From Flavobacterium quisquiliarum (lineage in GTDB: Bacteria; Bacteroidota; Bacteroidia; Flavobacteriales; Flavobacteriaceae), in NCBI RefSeq assembly GCF_019308285.1, contig NZ_WWEM01000013.1:1-64000 (forward strand): DNA of 64,000 nucleotides, written 5' to 3'. The position numbers and the translations under genes are program-made. The first letter of the stretch is position 1, and every line of letters starts with the position of its first letter. Of this stretch, positions 7,464 through 26,975 are shown in pieces. A model generated the notes under the pieces. That model was not told where the DNA came from. It saw nothing but the letters and a program-made list of their open reading frames with translations, and did no database searches.

Positions 7464-7867
7464 GATTTCTTTTTTTTAAAGTTACTAAGGTTCTGTTTTT
7501 TTAAGATTCTGAGGTTCTGAGTTGCTAAGTCTCTAAGTTTTTTTCTTAGTATCTTAGGGTTTTAGCAACTTATTCTCTCAAATTTCATTGATGATTAAAA
7601 CTCTTTTTTTTAGCCTCTAAGTTTTTAAGAAATCTAAGGTTCTAAGCTTTTTCACTTAGTATCTTAGAATCTTTGCCGCTTAGCGACTTTTAATTTATAC
7701 TTCAAAAGTATATCGGATTTTACTGTTTTAAAATTAAATGATACTGAGTTGTTGATTTTTGATGATGAATTGTTTCTTTATAAGATTCTGAGTTTCTGAG
7801 ATGCTGAGCTTCTAAGTTTTTTTCTTAGTATCTAAGAATCTTAGCAACTTAGCATCTATACCACGAA
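7464..7867. repeat. 404-bp intergenic region with three family B palindromic repeats
   Basis: No gene is visible. The region holds three copies of a repeat built from units such as CTGAG, CTAAG and CTTAGTATCTTAG, at about 7493-7572, 7612-7690 and 7784-7856. The last is a clear hairpin: arms of 33 bp at 7784-7816 and 7824-7856 (about 25 of 33 paired) around a loop of seven T. The same family encloses the four-helix-bundle gene at 15235 and lies at 25984-26117. Confidence 0.8.
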
Positions 7868-10027
7868 CTACAAGTTCTTCAACTGATTCTCATTTTTATT
7901 CTGGCTGATCGTCCAAAAGAAACCAACGAAGAAAAATCGATCTGCAGTTGGCACTACGGCTTGTCTTTGATAAACTCCACTTGCGTCTGGTGTTTTTGCG
8001 TAATCGTAACCAAAAACATTCTGAGTTCCTAAAATGTTTGACACTGAGAAATAAAGGATTTTTTGAGTTGTCAATAAATACGCCCAGTTAAAACTTAAAC
8101 TATTGTATGATTTTGTTTTTCCGCTCATAAATTGCGTTTGGTTTGGATCATTGTATGGACGTCCTGAACTGAAACTATTGGTAAATCCTACTTGTGATTT
8201 CCAATCTGTAATAAAATATTTCGTTACAACCGACAAACTATGATTTGCAATAAAACTTGGAGTTGCCATCGTTGGGAAATTTTTATATTGTCTTTCTGAA
8301 TCAATATAAGAATACGAAATCCAATATTCTAAGTTTTTATACAGATTGCTGTCTCTCCAAAGCAAATCAAATCCTTTTGCGTAACCTGATCCATTGTTAT
8401 TGAAAACAGAATTGTACTGAATATCTTGTGTATCATATTGAACTAAGTTGCTGTAATCTTTGTAATATAACTCTGTTCTAAGCAATTGTCCAGGTCTTGT
8501 AAATGTATAGTTGAAAATATAGTGTCTTGCTTTTTCGCTTTCAAACTGATGGTATTTTGAATATTTAATATAATCAACCACAGGCGTTTGAGTAAAATCT
8601 CCGTAAGCAAATGAGAACTGACTGCTTTTTGAAGCTTTAAATCCTAATGAAGCTCTCGGCGCAATATTGTTTTCGTTTAATAAACTGTTGTTTGAATATC
8701 TTAAACCAACTTTTAAAGCTAGGTTTTTAGAAAAAGCAATATCGCCTTCAGCATAACTTGCAAAAATATTAGAGTCGTATCCGTTTGCTCCATTGATAGA
8801 AACATTGTCATCAAAATTTTGATTGTATTTTGTAATGAAATAATCGCTACCAAAAGACAATCTGAAGTAATTAGAAACCTTTTTTGATAATTTCAATTTT
8901 AACTGCGCTGCATTTTCATCACTGTCAACATCAGTAATATCATACTTCAGTTTATTTTTACTATAACCGTAACTGATTCCAGATGTTAGCTGCCAGCCAG
9001 TTCCAATTGTTCCTTTATATGAAGAATTCAGATAAAAGTTGTTATTGTTCATATCAGTTCTAATCGGATTTTCGAAATTGATATTTTTCTGATTTAAATC
9101 GAATTTTTCTGAATCGAAAGAAGCATATAATTTAAAAATTCCGTTTGTGAATTTATATCTGTAAACCGTTTCACCTCCAAGTGATTGATACGGATTATTC
9201 CAATCTACATTCTGAGGAATAACGGCTTGGTAAGGAGCTAAATTAATATAGGCCATGTTCACACTCAAAGAACTCTTTTTCCATTTCTGCGTATTTCCTA
9301 AACTCAATCCAACCGTCATTAATCCAATATCTGTTTTTTCGTGATCCTCTTCATCATTCGTATTCAAAAGCAAAACACTTGATAACGCTTCACCATATTC
9401 AGCTGAATAACCTCCGGTAGAAAAAGCCATACCGCTAAATAACATTGGTGAAAAACGGCTTCGAGTTGGTAAATTATTCGTTGTCGCTCCATACGGCTGC
9501 GCTACACGAATTCCATCTACAAAAGTCTGAGTTTCGCTGGCTTCCCCTCCACGTACAAACAAACGTCCGTCTTCACCAACCGTTTGCGTTCCTGGAAGCG
9601 TTTGCAGTGTTGCGACAATATTTCCATTCGAGCCTGCTGTTGTAAGAATGTCTAAAGGTTTTAAAACCGAAACTCTTGCTTTTTCACCAGATTCTAATGT
9701 TCCTGCTGTGATTACAACAGCATCAAGAGCATTCATATTTTCTCTTAATTTTACTGTTTGATCTTTAAAATTAGTAACATCGATTTCTTTCTTATAGGTT
9801 TCGAAAAGTAAAAAGCTTATTACTATAAACTGATTTCCTTCTGCGGTTGTCTCAAAAGAAAATTCTCCAGTTTCAGAACTTGTTGCTCCATCATAAGTTC
9901 CATCAATGTAAATATTTGCACCTGCAACTGGTTTACCTTTTTGGTCTGTAACTTTTCCCGAAATAATATTTTGAGCAAAAGTAAAAGTGCTTAACAATAA
10001 TAAAATAAAAGTAATTCTGGTTTTCAT
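7868..10027 (-). CDS. TonB-dependent receptor with carboxypeptidase-D-like N-terminal domain
   Basis: An outer membrane receptor of about 719 residues. After the signal peptide (MKTRITFILLLLSTFTFAQ) comes a beta-sandwich CarboxypepD_reg-like domain (ISGKVTDQKGKPVAGANIYI), then a plug (GSNGNIVATLQTLPGTQTVGEDGRLFVRGGEASETQTFVDG) and a beta-barrel. I chose the ATG at 10027, where the signal peptide begins, over one 24 bases upstream. No SusD lies beside it, so it is not a SusC-type glycan importer; the substrate (siderophore, cofactor, metal or other) cannot be told. A promoter-like TACATTTG lies just upstream. Confidence 0.9.
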   Translation of the reverse strand: MKTRITFILLLLSTFTFAQNIISGKVTDQKGKPVAGANIYIDGTYDGATSSETGEFSFETTAEGNQFIVISFLLFETYKKEIDVTNFKDQTVKLRENMNALDAVVITAGTLESGEKARVSVLKPLDILTTAGSNGNIVATLQTLPGTQTVGEDGRLFVRGGEASETQTFVDGIRVAQPYGATTNNLPTRSRFSPMLFSGMAFSTGGYSAEYGEALSSVLLLNTNDEEDHEKTDIGLMTVGLSLGNTQKWKKSSLSVNMAYINLAPYQAVIPQNVDWNNPYQSLGGETVYRYKFTNGIFKLYASFDSEKFDLNQKNINFENPIRTDMNNNNFYLNSSYKGTIGTGWQLTSGISYGYSKNKLKYDITDVDSDENAAQLKLKLSKKVSNYFRLSFGSDYFITKYNQNFDDNVSINGANGYDSNIFASYAEGDIAFSKNLALKVGLRYSNNSLLNENNIAPRASLGFKASKSSQFSFAYGDFTQTPVVDYIKYSKYHQFESEKARHYIFNYTFTRPGQLLRTELYYKDYSNLVQYDTQDIQYNSVFNNNGSGYAKGFDLLWRDSNLYKNLEYWISYSYIDSERQYKNFPTMATPSFIANHSLSVVTKYFITDWKSQVGFTNSFSSGRPYNDPNQTQFMSGKTKSYNSLSFNWAYLLTTQKILYFSVSNILGTQNVFGYDYAKTPDASGVYQRQAVVPTADRFFFVGFFWTISQNKNENQLKNL

Positions 10028-12062: not shown

Positions 12063-12406
12063 GTTTTTTTTGCCACGAAGGCGCTAAGTCACAAAGTTTT
12101 TTTTTGGTAGCCACCAATTAAAAAGATTCAAAGTTTATCTCTCGCAGATTTGGCAGATTATGGAGATTATTTTTTTCTTTTTTTATCAAATCTGCTCAAT
12201 CTTCCAAATCTGCAAGAAAAAAATTTTGCTTTTCTGCGACTTTGCCAGATTCATTCACAACGTCATGCTCATGGAAACATATTGAGCGAATTTTCTTCTT
12301 TATATCGATTTTAACACACTAAAATCAAGATTTCCTATAAAAAACCGAATTTGATGCTTAATTTTGTGATCCGCATAAAAAAAGTGCGATTTCAAATTTA
12401 CTTCTG
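12063..12406. repeat. 344-bp intergenic region with palindromic repeats
   Basis: No gene is visible. Near 12070-12110 lies GCCACGAAGGCGCTAAGTCACAAAG, related to the dispersed families. A separate hairpin (family F) has arms at 12142-12168 and 12189-12215 (22 of 27 paired), built on GCAGATTTGGCAGATT. A TAATTTTG at 12359-12366 matches the -7 consensus and is a candidate promoter for the ClC gene. Confidence 0.65.
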
Positions 12407-14383: not shown

Positions 14384-14397
14384 TGAGATTTCCAATT

Positions 14398-14475
14398 CCT
14401 GCAAAGTTTTCAAAACTTTGTAGGTATAACTTGAAATACAAATGCAAACCTACAAAGTTTTGAAAATCTTGCAGG
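14398..14475. repeat. Family C palindromic repeat
   Basis: Arms at 14398-14425 and 14448-14475 pair at 26 of 28 positions around a 22-base loop. The unit contains TGCAAAGTTTTCAAAACTTTG. It lies downstream of the HPP gene and could also end its transcript, but lacks a T-run. Confidence 0.8.
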
Positions 14476-14565
14476 AGCGCCAGCTAAATAAACTACAGTA
14501 AATCAAAAGATTAAAATCTTTTCAACAAATCGTAATTCAAAATTCGTATTTCGTTTTTTATATTT

Positions 14566-14596: not shown

Positions 14597-15139
14597 ATGG
14601 TTTATAAATTTAGAGTAATTCTAGACGCCGAAGAAGATATTTTTAGAGACATTGCTATTCTTGAGGAAGATACTCTTGAGGATTTACACAATGCAATCTT
14701 CAACGCTTTTGGCTTTGACGGCTCAGAAGTGGCTTCATTTTATACTTGCGATGATACTTGGAATCAAGAAGATGAAATTCCGCTTTTTGATACAGGAGAT
14801 GTTCCTGGCGAAATAAGAACCATGAACGACTATCCGTTATCTAGTATCTTAGATAAAGAAAACACAAAAATTATCTACGTTTACGATTTCATCAGTATGT
14901 GGACTTTCTTAGTAGAATTGGCTGCTGTTGAAGATGAAGCTGTAGGAGCAACTTATCCTGAAACGTTATTTTCTCACGGAGAAATGCCTTCAGACGCTAT
15001 CGAAAAAAACTTCGAAGCCGATGATATGCACAACGACATCTACGGAGAATTTGAAGACGACCTAGACGAAGATGATCTTGATATGTTCGAAGGCGATGAC
15101 AGCTTCGAAGATTATGGATTTGAGGAGAATTGGAACTGA
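14597..15139 (+). CDS. Plasmid pRiA4b ORF-3-like (IS1096 passenger TnpR-type) protein
   Basis: A 180-residue acidic protein. The first 120 residues match the pRiA4b ORF-3-like fold (YKFRVILDAEEDIFRDIAI, LEDLHNAIFNAFGFDGSEVASFY, YVYDFISMWTFLVEL). The last 40 residues are extremely acidic (DLDEDDLDMFEGDDSFEDYGFE), which suggests interaction with a basic partner. Despite the family name there is no transposase nearby. It is chromosomal, conserved-looking and of unknown function. Confidence 0.78.
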   Translation: MVYKFRVILDAEEDIFRDIAILEEDTLEDLHNAIFNAFGFDGSEVASFYTCDDTWNQEDEIPLFDTGDVPGEIRTMNDYPLSSILDKENTKIIYVYDFISMWTFLVELAAVEDEAVGATYPETLFSHGEMPSDAIEKNFEADDMHNDIYGEFEDDLDEDDLDMFEGDDSFEDYGFEENWN

Positions 15140-15143
15140 CATT

Positions 15144-15184
15144 AGTTACTAAGATACTGAGACGCTAAGATTCTAAGTTTTTTT
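15144..15184. repeat. Family B left arm of the inverted repeat around the four-helix-bundle gene
   Basis: This 41-base arm is the inverted repeat of 15593-15633: 34 of 41 positions pair, and the 20 inner bases, CTAAGATTCTAAGTTTTTTT, pair perfectly. It starts five bases after the stop codon of the upstream gene. Confidence 0.88.
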
Positions 15185-15234
15185 ATTTTGAGAGTTTTTT
15201 CTTATTTTTAAATCTAATTTTAAAAGTAAAAAAA

Positions 15235-15594
15235 ATGAGTCATTTTAGAAAAATCTTAGTTTGGCAGAAATCAATATCCTTAGTTACCAAAATTTACAAA
15301 ACAACAAGTACATTTCCTAAAGAAGAAATGTTTGGATTAACTTCACAGATACGTCGAAGTTCAGTTTCAATTCCGAGCAATATTGCGGAAGGATCAGGTA
15401 GAGAAACCACTAAAGATTTTTTACGATTTTTATATATTTCTCTTGGTTCCGTATTTGAGATGCAGACTCAACTCGAAATTGCAAAAAATATTATTTATAT
15501 AAACGAAGAAGAATTTAACCTTTTATATGAGGATAGTCGAGAGATCGAAAGAATGTTAGCGTCATTAATCAGAAAATTAAAAGACAGTAACTAA
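15235..15594 (+). CDS. Four-helix-bundle protein, 23S rRNA intervening-sequence (S23/IVP) family
   Basis: A 119-residue helical protein with the family pattern: FRKILVWQKSISLVTKIYKTT, FPKEEMFGLTSQIRRSSVSIPSNIAEGSGR, FLRFLYISLGSVFEMQTQLEIA. Homologues are encoded inside intervening sequences of 23S rRNA genes in spirochaetes and others, and elsewhere as stand-alone genes or as the Avd accessory protein of diversity-generating retroelements; they bind nucleic acid through a basic surface. No rRNA or reverse transcriptase is present here. The gene is enclosed by 41-bp inverted repeats whose right arm overlaps its stop codon and ends seven bases before the next gene. Confidence 0.88.
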   Translation: MSHFRKILVWQKSISLVTKIYKTTSTFPKEEMFGLTSQIRRSSVSIPSNIAEGSGRETTKDFLRFLYISLGSVFEMQTQLEIAKNIIYINEEEFNLLYEDSREIERMLASLIRKLKDSN

Positions 15595-15633
15595 AAAAAC
15601 TTAGAATCTTAGAAACTTAGAATCTCAGCAACT
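15593..15633. repeat. Family B right arm of the inverted repeat around the four-helix-bundle gene
   Basis: Reverse complement of 15144-15184 with seven mismatches. It overlaps the last two bases of the stop codon of the four-helix-bundle gene and ends seven bases before the ATG of the nucleoid-associated protein gene, leaving no room for a separate promoter between them. Confidence 0.88.
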
Positions 15634-15640
15634 CAAAAAA

Positions 15641-16699
15641 ATGATCAACCTATTCAACACCCACATCGATACGCTTTCTATACATCGCGTAGGAAATAAA
15701 AGCCGTAACGAAGCTATTTTTTTATCAGAGCAGCCATTTAATCTTAATGACGAAATTGTTCCTTTGATAAAAGAGTTCTTTTTTAAGCCTTTTAGAGAAA
15801 AAGAAGAAAACTATTATCAGTTTGCGCACGAAGTGGACTTGGACTACAACGACATGTTTAAATATGCCACTGAGATTTTTACTAATCCGGCAAATGTTCA
15901 TGAGGTTTCCAAAAACATCACAAAGCACTTATATGAGCAGTCAAATCATCCGCACATTAAAAACGGAGAGGTTTATGTAACCTATTTGACCAACTTAAGC
16001 ATTGATAACAATGTAGTTGATGCAATTGGTATTTTTAAAAGTGAATTACAAGCTGACTTTTTACAGTTTGAAGAAAAAGAAAGTAACCTTGAAATGATCT
16101 TACAACAAGGAATCAACCTTAATAAATTAGACAAAGGATGTTTAATTTTTAACTTTAAAAAAGAAGAAGGATATAAAATCTTAACTGTAGACAGCAACCG
16201 TTATGATGCTCGTTACTGGTTAGAGCACTTTTTATCTGTAGACGCTTTTGAAGATGAAAATTTCATCACTAAAAAATATTTAAAATTCTGTCAAAACTTC
16301 GCAAAAGACGTGGTTTTGCCAGCAGAAGACAAGAAAGAGGAAGTAATGTTTATGAATCGATCTGTGAATTATTTCGCTAAAAATGATCAGTTTGAGGAGC
16401 AGAATTTCTTGAATGAAGTACTAGACAATCCTGAATTAATTCCTGAATTCAAAAACTATAAAGTGGATAAAGGAGAAAAATACAGCATCGAAGATGTAAC
16501 CTCATTCCCTATCGCCAACGCAGCAGTTTCTGACGCTAGAAAATCGATTAAAAACGTAATTAATCTGGACACTCATATTCAGATTAAAATGGATTTTATC
16601 AACCCTGAAAGTGCAGAAAAATTTGTTGAAAAAGGCTGGGATGAAGAAAAAAAAATGTATTACTACTTAGTTTATTTCAATAAAGAAGAAAAAAGCTAA
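15641..16699 (+). CDS. Nucleoid-associated protein, NdpA/YejK family
   Basis: A 352-residue cytoplasmic protein matching the NA37/YejK family: start INLFNTHIDTLSIHRVGNKSRNE, central KSELQADFLQFEE and GCLIFNFKKEEGYKILTVDSNRYDARYWLEHFL, and a C-terminal part with KMDFINPESAEKFVEKGWDEEKKMYYYLVYF. The E. coli member associates with the nucleoid; its role is poorly understood. Its ATG follows the right arm of the four-helix-bundle element after only seven bases, so its transcript must start inside or upstream of that element. A strong terminator follows. Confidence 0.88.
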   Translation: MINLFNTHIDTLSIHRVGNKSRNEAIFLSEQPFNLNDEIVPLIKEFFFKPFREKEENYYQFAHEVDLDYNDMFKYATEIFTNPANVHEVSKNITKHLYEQSNHPHIKNGEVYVTYLTNLSIDNNVVDAIGIFKSELQADFLQFEEKESNLEMILQQGINLNKLDKGCLIFNFKKEEGYKILTVDSNRYDARYWLEHFLSVDAFEDENFITKKYLKFCQNFAKDVVLPAEDKKEEVMFMNRSVNYFAKNDQFEEQNFLNEVLDNPELIPEFKNYKVDKGEKYSIEDVTSFPIANAAVSDARKSIKNVINLDTHIQIKMDFINPESAEKFVEKGWDEEKKMYYYLVYFNKEEKS

Positions 16700-20806: not shown

Positions 20807-20813
20807 ATTTTTT

Positions 20814-20952
20814 AAACACATAGAGACATAGCTTTTAGAGCTTCAAAAAGGCGTTTCACTTGCATTAATTCACATAGGTAAGCTATGTGTTAGAAACTAG
20901 TTTCTTTCTCTATTCTTTGTAGTTAAAGAAAAAACTATGTTTCTATGTGTTT
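20814..20952. repeat. Family E inverted repeat
   Basis: Outer arms AAACACATAGAGACATAG (20814-20831) and CTATGTTTCTATGTGTTT (20935-20952) pair at 17 of 18 positions around a loop of about 100 bases that itself contains CACATAGGTAAGCTATGTG. No gene is visible inside. Confidence 0.75.
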
Positions 20953-20973
20953 AAAAATATTTTTGCATAAAAA

Positions 20974-25200: not shown

Positions 25201-25971
25201 AAATATGATGATGATTTAAGTTTGGACTACAACCGTGTCCGCATCAGAAAATTTAATGCTTCGGGAGCCATCAGACATGTTGGAAGATATGGAAGCGAAT
25301 TCAGCGTTCAGCCTATATTCCAGAGAATGACGGTTGAAGAGACTGAGAATCGTTTTATTAATCTTCCAAATATTGTAAATCCAGATGTTTTTAATACTCA
25401 GAATTATGGAAGTTTGAAAGTGAAATATCTTTTCAAAAATTCTGATTTTGCTGCGAAGCCAACTCTTGGAATGTTTTTTATGATTGCTGGAACTTGGACG
25501 GCAAATCTGGACGAAACCAATAAAAATTTCCCAACTCTAGAAAGTGCTTTAGGATTTACACATAAAATTGATAAAACGGGCAAACTGGTTTTAGCAAGTT
25601 ATCTTAAAGGAAAAGCTATTTTTAATAATAATTACGAATTCTATCAAGGTGCTTCTTTAGGTGGCGATACTGATTTAAGAGGTTTTAGAAACGAACGCTT
25701 TTTAGGAAGTTCGTATTTCTCTCAAAGTTCGGACTTACGTTTAAGCATCGGCCGAATCAGAAAAACTATTGCTCCTTTTACTTACGGAATTCTAGGTGGA
25801 TTTGACTACGGAAGGGTTTGGCTTGATGGCGAAGATTCTAAAAAATGGCATCACGATTACGGTGGAGGACTTTGGTTAAATGCAATTAATGTTTTAACTG
25901 CCAGAATATCATATTTTAAATCTCCTGACGAAATTGGAAGGGTTATTTTTGGAGCGGCATATAGTTTTTAA
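22240..25971 (+). CDS. Lipoprotein fusion: calcineurin-type phosphoesterase, kinase-like middle region, Omp85-like beta-barrel
   Basis: A 1243-residue protein. The signal sequence ends in a lipobox-like LVYSC (Cys29). Residues 50-400 are a metallophosphoesterase with GDAGN (62), GDNIYP (95), GNHDW (139), HH (235) and GHDHN (313). Residues 430-730 hold a region with DILIGDWDRHSDQW near 620 and PRDRDQAF near 646, which I read as a kinase-like catalytic loop and metal-binding DRD, similar in spacing to FAM20/HipA-type kinases; this is inference. Residues 900-1243 form a beta-barrel with GGDTDLRGF at 1141, like the (V/L)RGF loop-6 motif of Omp85 proteins, and end in a terminal Phe. It is probably anchored in the outer membrane. 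The substrate is unknown. Confidence 0.82.
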   Translation: MKLFLDNHFIAKIKTGTVTLLLLSLVYSCATHKPQYGKNVSSIENENATDTIKIDHTFFLVGDAGNADEEQAQQTLELLHQRLKKASKKSTLLFLGDNIYPKGFPSDKKSGDKALAETKLKNQLKLADGYRGKTIFIPGNHDWYSGIKGLELQADFVTKHLNDKKAFLPRKSCPIEDVKIDSITTLITIDSEWFLEDWDDHPTINDNCEIKTREAFFEELESLLNKNQEKTVVLAIHHPLLSNGTHGGQFSLEKQLFPLEKKIPLPVIGSFINLLRKTSGVSPQDIQNKQYTIYAKRIKTLLQKQKNVIVVSGHDHNLQYISNENIQQIISGAGSKSEAARAVNENDFSYGGNGYATLTLFKSGDAKVSFYGNENNKEKLLFEREIIKAKEINWASNIPNKFPAKITTSIYSPKMTDKSWFHSFLFGKHYRKYYSMPIEATVATVDTLKGGLKPIREGGGHQSVSLRMSDPKGREFVMRGMKKSATVFLQSVAFKDQYVVNDFEDTYAESFLFDFYTTSHPYAPYAIDGMSNKIGLLHTNPILYYIPRQNGLGEFNAGFGDQLYMIEERPADNHLDGKNFGNPSNIIGTDDVMLNLHKDEKYSVDEKEYIKARLFDILIGDWDRHSDQWRWAEFKKDGKVIYKPIPRDRDQAFVKYDGALLSILMNIPALRHMRTFKDKIGNVKWLSREPYPQDLAFLKTADQKDWIEQAKYIQDNLSDADIEKSFKNMPKEVQDETVDEIIRKLKNRKRELQKYAAIYADVLSRTVMIAGTDKKDKFVLNHNAKKSIEIQVFRSKKEGDELQYTKTVTDAKTKNLWIYGLDDNDTFEVKGNYKSNIKIRLIGGQNNDTYNIENGRKVIVYDFKSKENTYNLDSKTQTQLTDDYDVNLYNYEKPKYNVVSGLPNIGFNPDDGVKVGINLNYTVNNFKQNPYTQRHVLNAFYYFATGGLEFNYAAHFPGLLGKWVIDVESLYTTPNFAMNYFGYGNESKYDDDLSLDYNRVRIRKFNASGAIRHVGRYGSEFSVQPIFQRMTVEETENRFINLPNIVNPDVFNTQNYGSLKVKYLFKNSDFAAKPTLGMFFMIAGTWTANLDETNKNFPTLESALGFTHKIDKTGKLVLASYLKGKAIFNNNYEFYQGASLGGDTDLRGFRNERFLGSSYFSQSSDLRLSIGRIRKTIAPFTYGILGGFDYGRVWLDGEDSKKWHHDYGGGLWLNAINVLTARISYFKSPDEIGRVIFGAAYSF

Positions 25972-25983
25972 AAAAGGTACTGA

Positions 25984-26117
25984 GATTCTGAGATGCTAAG
26001 GTTCTAAGGTTTTCTTAGATAGCGATAAAAAAGCCACGAATTCACGGATTTTAATTACAAATAATTCGTGAATTCGTGGCTAACTTTTTTGACTTAGTCC
26101 CTTAGTATCTTAGAACC
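25984..26117. repeat. Nested repeats: family A hairpin inside family B arms
   Basis: Outer family B arms at 25984-26008 and 26093-26117 pair at 20 of 25 positions. Inside them lies a complete family A hairpin, with arms at 26032-26050 and 26063-26081 pairing at 18 of 19. The outer right arm ends at the base before the last codon of the convergent lipoprotein gene. The whole may act as a bidirectional transcription stop. Confidence 0.85.
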
Positions 26118-26975
26118 TTAAAGTCTAAACTCATACACATTCCCTCCTATTTTATCGGCTTTTTCATCGGCGATTAACAGGGTGTTGTTGTCTTTGAAAA
26201 CGATGGCTTCTTTTTGAGAAAAATGATTTAGTTCTATTTGGGTTTGAGTTCCTTTATGAAATAAATCGCCTTTGAATCCTTTAAACAAAAGAACTTTGTC
26301 GTGACTTAACAAAGCTACTTTTTTCCCGTCTGGACTTATTGTCGCGCTCGTCAGCACACAATGATTGTAATTGTTACAGGTTTTAAACTCTCCTATTTTC
26401 ATTGCTTTCTGAGTTCCAGAAGCATTTTTTATTTTGTAGATAAAAGCAGTTCCATCAAAACCTTTACTTCTGTTTTTTGTGAAAAGGTAGAAATAACCGT
26501 TGTGCTCAAAGAAACTTTCTACGTCATAAAACATTTCTTTTTTCTTTGGAGGAAATTCTTTCTGTTCCGGATATGAAAATGAGATTTTATATTCGGCGGA
26601 AGCCACATCTTTATTCAACTGATTTTTTGGCAGCTTATAAATGCAAAGATCTCTTCTTTCGTTATCATTATTTCCGAAATCGCCAATGTAAATATTTCCA
26701 GCTTTATCTTTTGTAATGTCTTCCCAATCTACATTTTTGGCATTTGAAATTGTAATCGTTTTTTCTATTTTACCTTTAGAATTTAAAGCATAGATAGCAT
26801 TTTTATTACCGCTGTCTTCTAAGGTATAAAGCAGATTGTTCTCAGGAAAATACGTTATTCCTGAAACTTCTTTTAATTTCTTTGGAAGCGAATAAAGCAC
26901 TTTTAAATCATTCCCGGACTGCTGTTGGCAAGCCAATAAAACTATTGAAACGGCTATTAAAAAAGATTTTTTCAT
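26118..26975 (-). CDS. Lipoprotein, SdiA-regulated/beta-propeller-like
   Basis: A 285-residue lipoprotein (MKKSFLIAVSIVLLACQQQ, Cys16). The body looks like a small beta-propeller: KLKEVSGITYFPENNLLYTLEDSGN, WEDITKDKAGNIYIGDFGNNDNERRD, TSATISPDGKKVALLSHDK and VFKDNNTLLIADEKAD repeat the blade pattern. It resembles the SdiA-regulated/YjiK-like family. It faces the phosphatase-fusion gene across the nested repeats. No enzymatic residues are evident; a binding or scaffold role in the envelope is likely. Confidence 0.72.
   Translation of the reverse strand: MKKSFLIAVSIVLLACQQQSGNDLKVLYSLPKKLKEVSGITYFPENNLLYTLEDSGNKNAIYALNSKGKIEKTITISNAKNVDWEDITKDKAGNIYIGDFGNNDNERRDLCIYKLPKNQLNKDVASAEYKISFSYPEQKEFPPKKKEMFYDVESFFEHNGYFYLFTKNRSKGFDGTAFIYKIKNASGTQKAMKIGEFKTCNNYNHCVLTSATISPDGKKVALLSHDKVLLFKGFKGDLFHKGTQTQIELNHFSQKEAIVFKDNNTLLIADEKADKIGGNVYEFRL

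Follow-up and report, generated by a model that had tools for sequence, protein, structure and literature searches.

In the RAYT/REP systems (REP-associated tyrosine transposases and repetitive extragenic palindromes), a protein-coding gene that often keeps to one fixed site lies between inverted copies of a repeat that is dispersed as small hairpins, while cyanobacteria carry heptamer repeats, the short tandemly repeated repetitive (STRR) sequences. Coxiella carries an intervening sequence (IVS) of about 430 nt in its 23S rRNA, described as having a 28-bp stem, as being excised by RNase III in vitro and as containing an S23 open reading frame (ORF) of unknown function; a former mobile element has been suggested (PMC4990558). 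Insertions in the rRNA of the candidate phyla radiation contain 23S_rRNA_IVP ORFs (PMC11270868). Heptamers are reported as 186 GGGAATC arrays in Xanthomonas campestris, with 70 inverted pairs there and 75 in a second Xanthomonas genome (PMC4692102), and as dispersed and inverted TAACTGA arrays in Beggiatoaceae (PMC4679880). These accounts call the function and origin of the S23 protein and the rRNA IVS unclear (PMC4990558) and leave open why heptamers are in excess in the genomes of bacteria (PMC4692102, PMC4679880). Here we analyze a stretch of 64,000 nucleotides from Flavobacterium quisquiliarum (NZ_WWEM01000013.1, positions 1 to 64,000; the window), in which an S23 gene lies between long inverted arms outside rRNA. 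Armed S23 genes of this architecture, built from short iterated units and biased toward the sense strand, come and go at defined sites, and the feature in the window is probably a mobile, operon-intervening element moved with the help of S23, with gene-free hairpins as its non-autonomous copies.

The element and its neighbors, in window coordinates, are:

15144..15188, + strand: left arm, 8-nt-period units AGTTACTAAG ATACTGAG ACGCTAAG ATTCTAAG, starting right behind the stop of the upstream gene
15235..15594, + strand: gene for a 119-aa S23 (four helix bundle) protein, occupying the loop
15589..15633, + strand: right arm, the inverted copy, overlapping the S23 stop codon
14597..15139, + strand: upstream neighbor, PRiA4_ORF3 family (PF07929)
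15641..16699, + strand: downstream neighbor, NA37 nucleoid-associated family (PF04245)

An earlier note on this DNA had described 41-nt arms that pair at 34 positions with a perfect inner 20, and direct reading of 15144-15184 against the reverse complement of 15593-15633 reproduced this exactly. A repeat finder lengthened the arms to 45 nt at 82% complementarity (15144-15188 and 15589-15633), which places them at the top of 97 inverted repeats ranked by length (arms at most 1500 apart). The position given for the stem was also correct: it lies between two protein genes, runs over the S23 stop codon and leaves 7 bases before the downstream ATG (15641), with all three genes on the + strand. When the two flanks were dinucleotide-shuffled 60 times, no shuffle paired as well (z=10.7, row L001), and the RNA fold computed for 15135-15645 likewise goes beyond chance (z=-4.2, 0 of 100 shuffles as good). 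The arm units are degenerate 8-nt sequences of the form xxxCTAAG. The protein matches Pfam 23S_rRNA_IVP (PF05635) at E 3.3e-42 (scoring 143.4 bits where the cut-off is 33.8) and TIGR02436 at E 6e-42; bAvd (E 5e-6) and DivGenRetAVD (E 5e-4) stay under their curated cut-offs, and 23S_rRNA_IVP and bAvd are the only Pfam matches at E 0.001. Solved relatives are PDB 2gsc and 2rld. The former is XCC0516, an S23 protein from Xanthomonas campestris, the species with the 186 GGGAATC arrays (PMC4692102).

This locus shares with the rRNA IVS an S23 ORF inside terminal inverted repeats, a similar size, a long RNA stem (predicted here) and the sense strand of an operon. It differs in lying between PRiA4_ORF3 and NA37 genes rather than inside 23S rRNA; an Rfam scan detected no rRNA family at L001, and over 15 S23 loci it returned two tRNAs only and no rRNA copy. 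The S23 elements examined here also differ from the rRNA IVS, to which we liken them through published IVS descriptions, in their iterated 7-8-nt arms and dispersed gene-free hairpins. The window S23 gene resembles a RAYT gene in being flanked by inverted copies of a genome-dispersed repeat, whereas its product is a four-helix bundle with no Y1/HUH transposase match in Pfam. The STRR, GGGAATC and TAACTGA heptamers are tandem 7-nt units located mostly in intergenic DNA, with inverted pairs in Xanthomonas; many of the S23 arms examined here are alike in this, the window arms having an 8-nt period, and the difference is that the arrays here form the arms of S23 elements. Similarity to Avd of diversity-generating retroelements is distant (NF033474, 20.2 bits against a cut-off of 80, not reached). 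Neither S23 nor four helix is mentioned in the main texts of PMC4692102 and PMC4679880, and no publication linking S23 to heptamer or STRR repeats was found in the open-access literature, a scope that makes this negative no proof of novelty. On the best reading of these comparisons, the S23 element would relate to its dispersed repeats as RAYTs do to REPs, while being built like an rRNA IVS.

Mobility was seen on related cyanobacterial plasmids, where a unit of arms plus S23, about 0.4-0.5 kb long, is present or absent between the same genes. At site A, arms and S23 occupy plasmid C of T. variabilis and Scytonema as a 428-bp insert with GTAA at both ends, and the site is empty in Nostoc linckia, Tolypothrix and others at 97.5-97.9% identity (97.9% for Nostoc linckia against T. 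variabilis plasmid C). Two further states of site A were recognized by eye: a gene-free hairpin of the site's own units in Brasilonema and an arm plus an S23 remnant in Nostoc C052 plasmid E. At site D1, a 505-bp element of pNsp_c with GGGAAAA arms lies between two genes whose spacer in four relatives measures 0-3 bp. One gene upstream, at D2, a different S23 with AGTCAGG arms is found in pNsp_a and C052_D, encoded as one protein accession in both (420 bp against 3 bp). Site E is filled with about 0.5 kb or empty at 3 bp. Filled, empty and gene-free states were all seen at site C, less cleanly, and presence/absence at site F is likewise less clean. A MITE or insertion sequence would insert cleanly with a target duplication of fixed length; here presence/absence is clean at A, D1, D2 and E, and the insertion ends show only direct repeats of 3-5 bp, which vary. 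Another candidate empty site, B (cas6-S23-cas4, Anabaena sp. 90 against Dolichospermum), was rejected as not clean. As a separate observation, S23 (1189-1560) lies between cas6 and cas4 of CRISPR operons on a Pseudanabaena galeata plasmid (L317) and on one of Anabaena sp. 90 (L320), where the operon is type I-D.

Because both filled and empty plasmid sites exist, gene and arms behave as a single unit outside rRNA. The earlier proposal of a free-living, IVS-like form is thus supported for architecture and mobility. Its companion idea, that gene-free hairpins are the empty version, fits two plasmid sites, A and C, where such hairpins have the same units at the same site (L339, L337; by eye); for the window's own gene-free hairpins, we infer descent from S23-bearing copies.

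Arms are a general feature of S23 genes. The earlier note would have been refuted had the other S23 genes of the genus lacked them, and the reverse was found: 69 of 82 genus ORFs are armed (z>3, 0 of 60 shuffles as good). This test scored inverted repeats between 150 nt on each side of the ORF; ORFs below 95 aa and identical copies had been dropped (89 ORFs to 82 rows), and the rows are not independent because 34 of the loci are orthologues at the window's own site. Grouped by flanking genes, the genus has 18 S23 sites, 15 with at least one armed member. A PF05635 match occurs in at least 146 of the 150 genomes of the genus sample. The window's genome has four S23 genes, two with clear arms (L009, z 10.7; L011, z 5.7), those of L011 being of a different sequence with GTTTATTG units; L010 (z 1.3) and L012 (z 1.0) fail the test, though weaker arms can be recognized there. 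At L041 and L063, two adjacent S23 copies of one subfamily share a contig, each with arm-like units.

A profile search gave a wider set of 80 S23 loci in named genomes of many phyla, which overlaps with the genus set (L142 = L036 and L149 = L069 in arms). In this set, 57 of 80 S23 loci exceed z 3, and for 55 of them none of the 60 shuffles did as well; among control ORFs, 21 of 460 exceed z 3. An alignment score of at least 17 is reached by 43 of 80 against 10 of 460. The controls were 500 ORFs drawn from the same loci, of which 460 had enough flank, with 30 shuffles each against 60 for S23; about five of the 80 S23 ORFs are broken or cut (e.g., L148, L157, L166, L168, L201), with misplaced flanks, and were scored as misses. 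Thirty plasmid records had an S23 match, nearly all cyanobacterial among the matches listed, and 10 of the 12 genes examined are armed (z>3, equaled by no more than 1 of 100 shuffles), with one more borderline and one armless.

The orientation of S23 is strongly biased. In armed loci of the named genomes with parallel neighbors, S23 is in the sense orientation in 37 of 38, whereas ordinary ORFs of the same loci are co-directional with both neighbors in 52% and with neither in 8%. Genes here are computed ORFs, both neighbors were called in 45 of 55 armed loci, and several of the 38 represent one orthologous Flavobacterium site. Two plasmid S23 genes are antisense to both neighbors (Calothrix 7716 and Nostoc edaphicum).

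The arms have a common internal design. Across 53 arms of the named set, self-match reached 0.58 at a lag of 7 nt and 0.54 at 14 nt, where shuffled arms gave 0.31, and was flat at other lags except for a small rise at 8 and 16. The best period was 7 in 36 arms, 8 in 15, and 6 and 9 in one each; the window arms have period 8, which is frequent in their subfamily, and most examined cyanobacterial S23 arms period 7. The units themselves are highly varied (GGGACTT, TTAGTGG, AGGGACA, GGGAACA, AGTCAGG, CGAACAT, CTAAGATT), and those on Nostocales plasmids resemble heptamer repeats long familiar there.

The arm family of the window is scattered through its own genome, with 73 matching pieces, which correspond to fewer places because both query arms match the same hairpins, and 34 exact copies of CTAAGATTCTAAG. 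The gene-free members within the window are:

7497..7684: gene-free stretch of the family, hairpin units 7497-7565 and 7646-7684; middle hairpin present/absent in relatives
7776..7861: gene-free hairpin of the family
25971..26129: gene-free hairpin of the family, with its two arms at 25971-26015 and 26086-26129

Hairpins present in some relatives and absent from others were found at one orthologous spacer: in the equivalents of 7470-7868, solo hairpins are variably present, a CTAAG or a CAAAG type can occupy one slot, and G060 has none. The window also contains strong gene-free inverted repeats of differing sequence at 14397-14476 (29 nt, 93%), 12129-12228 (40 nt, 80%) and 20809-20957 (28 nt, 93%). 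Nested hairpins occur at L316 (G004) and at L309 and L311 (G053, G109), where the loop of a CAAAG hairpin contains a CTAAG one and the loop of a CTAAG hairpin a CTATCCCGATAGTTATCGGGA palindrome. A tandem array at G009:C2:63915-64030 has a 17-bp period containing TTAGACTTCTTAGA, on one strand throughout.

Arms and S23 protein partly go together. Every S23 subfamily of the genus is paired with a unit of its own, and three observations reach further than common ancestry would. G006 and G015 match the window at 97-98% identity in the proteins flanking its site, yet their S23 there is only 61% identical and the arms are CAAAG in place of CTAAG; among their dispersed copies CTAAG still prevails (37 and 45 against 13 and 14). 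Near-identical flanks with a divergent S23 and other arms indicate that gene and arms changed together. Between different sites, mean arm similarity rises from 0.19 at <45% S23 identity to 0.26 at 60-70%, with no rise in a reverse-strand control. On an S23 tree with one sequence per site, the period label changes 5 times against 8.7 in shuffles (0 of 200 as low), and a Nitrospirae and a Chitinophagaceae metagenome-assembled genome group with Flavobacterium in the 8-nt set. Of the genomes that have the matching S23 subfamily, 25 of 27 contain the TTAGACTTCTTAGA (c11) unit, as do 34 of 123 without it; the CTAAGATTCTAAG unit is in 35 of 48 with and 10 of 102 without, both uncorrected for relatedness. 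Holders were assigned by identity among the matches listed, for c11 at >=65% plus one partial match (genomes with 56-64% c11-like matches counting as non-holders), and for the window's subfamily at about >=58%, with judgment used at 58%.

Swapping arms between loci is confounded, most loci being one orthologous site, and shuffles and within-site permutation were used instead. Across the 34 loci of the window's site, arms of one locus pair at 23.0 against 17.3 for swapped ones, with none of 2000 permutations as good; two further sites gave 1 and 27 of 2000. The S23 gene is under purifying selection, with a median dN/dS by site of 0.15, 0.11, 0.14 and 0.32 and dS near saturation. Among relatives' loci at the window's site, 17 of 30 carry no S23 and several unit families are represented. 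In these species (L087-L109) the site often has gene-free inverted repeats of very different units, GAGCCAAGATAAAAGAC, CCTCACCCCAACCCTCTCC and AGAATAGAAAATAG; L090 and L103 carry another S23 subfamily with TTTAAAC arms there, the L103 copy appearing broken.

Taken as a mobile element aided by S23, the window feature could work as follows. The S23 gene would be expressed by read-through, and the arms in the transcript would pair into a long stem, as in the rRNA IVS. The protein may then bind its cognate arm or hairpin and aid copying to new sites, and gene-free hairpins would be left behind as non-autonomous copies. The strand bias would suit an RNA-stage copy made by a reverse transcriptase acting in trans, and would equally suit selective loss of antisense insertions.

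Several results weigh against this S23-aided element. We know of no catalytic site in S23, end duplications are short and inconsistent, and no phage record matched S23. Most subfamilies are confined to one site, so the match between arms and S23 may largely be shared descent. The between-site correlation of arms with S23 is small (rho 0.12 against 0.02 for the reverse-strand control; sites were called the same by blastp at 1e-6, which over-merged loci, and by a stricter rule for the tree). Within the window's subfamily, CAAAG or CTAAG flavor follows S23 type weakly (p 0.08; 0.03 minus G006 and G015), and at one site out of four the arms give no sign of having co-evolved (620 of 2000 permutations). 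The holder counts lack a kinship correction, and some non-holders are rich in copies (G004 with 38 of the c11 unit; G094 with 23 and G112 with 18 of the window unit). Repeat density gives no clear order with S23 number: in 400-kb samples of four genomes with 0, 1, 6 and 9 S23 genes, which differ in G+C and give noisy counts, iterated inverted pairs numbered 0 in the S23-free genome and 3, 5 and 7 in the others, with 5 in the one-S23 and 3 in the nine-S23 genome, and a looser count was equally disordered (0.8, 3.0, 6.5 and 7.2 per 100 kb). Arms at z>3 are missing from 13 of 82 genus loci and 23 of 80 wider loci.

Such weak rows are also what a chance or compositional artifact of A+T-rich spacers would predict, an explanation that is refuted, to near certainty, by dinucleotide shuffles, control ORFs and swapped arms, none of which matched the real arms. 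A serious rival, though an unlikely one in our estimate, is that S23 is a passenger: another activity (an unlinked transposase, a reverse transcriptase, or replication slippage with template switching) would make and move the hairpins, and S23 would simply inhabit their loops. The excess of gene-free hairpins over S23 copies fits this, as do the several unit families that relatives lacking S23 have at the window's site (17 of 30 loci), hairpin-in-hairpin nesting (L316), the lack of a known catalytic site and the copy-rich genomes without a matching S23. A passenger would not be expected between such arms far more often than other ORFs, nor to be under purifying selection, nor to have arm units that partly follow its subfamily, across sites and phyla too. 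Purifying selection, together with the sense orientation in operon spacers and the retention of arm pairing while the sequence changes, would also suit S23 as an ordinary operon gene whose arms form an RNA stem that stabilizes, processes or insulates its message. We consider this improbable: the same units are dispersed elsewhere without a gene, units differ completely between families, and the empty sites, where the element is missing between flanks nearly identical to those of filled ones, already strain it. On balance we favor the mobile element moved with S23 help.

A wider version of this S23-aided model is possible, and we put it forward tentatively: S23 proteins may drive the spread of heptamer repeats, each subfamily recognizing its own 7-8-nt unit and copying hairpins, with or without the gene, into operon spacers on the sense strand through an RNA stage. 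The rRNA IVSs would then be copies that landed in rRNA, and heptamer hairpins dispersed elsewhere would be copies without the gene. Should S23 and the heptamer arms be one mobile system, the function and origin of S23 and the IVS and the excess of heptamers both become testable. A common hypothetical protein, found throughout most of the genus sample, would gain a role, and a tiny mobile S23 element, distributed across several phyla, may help account for a common class of short repeats.
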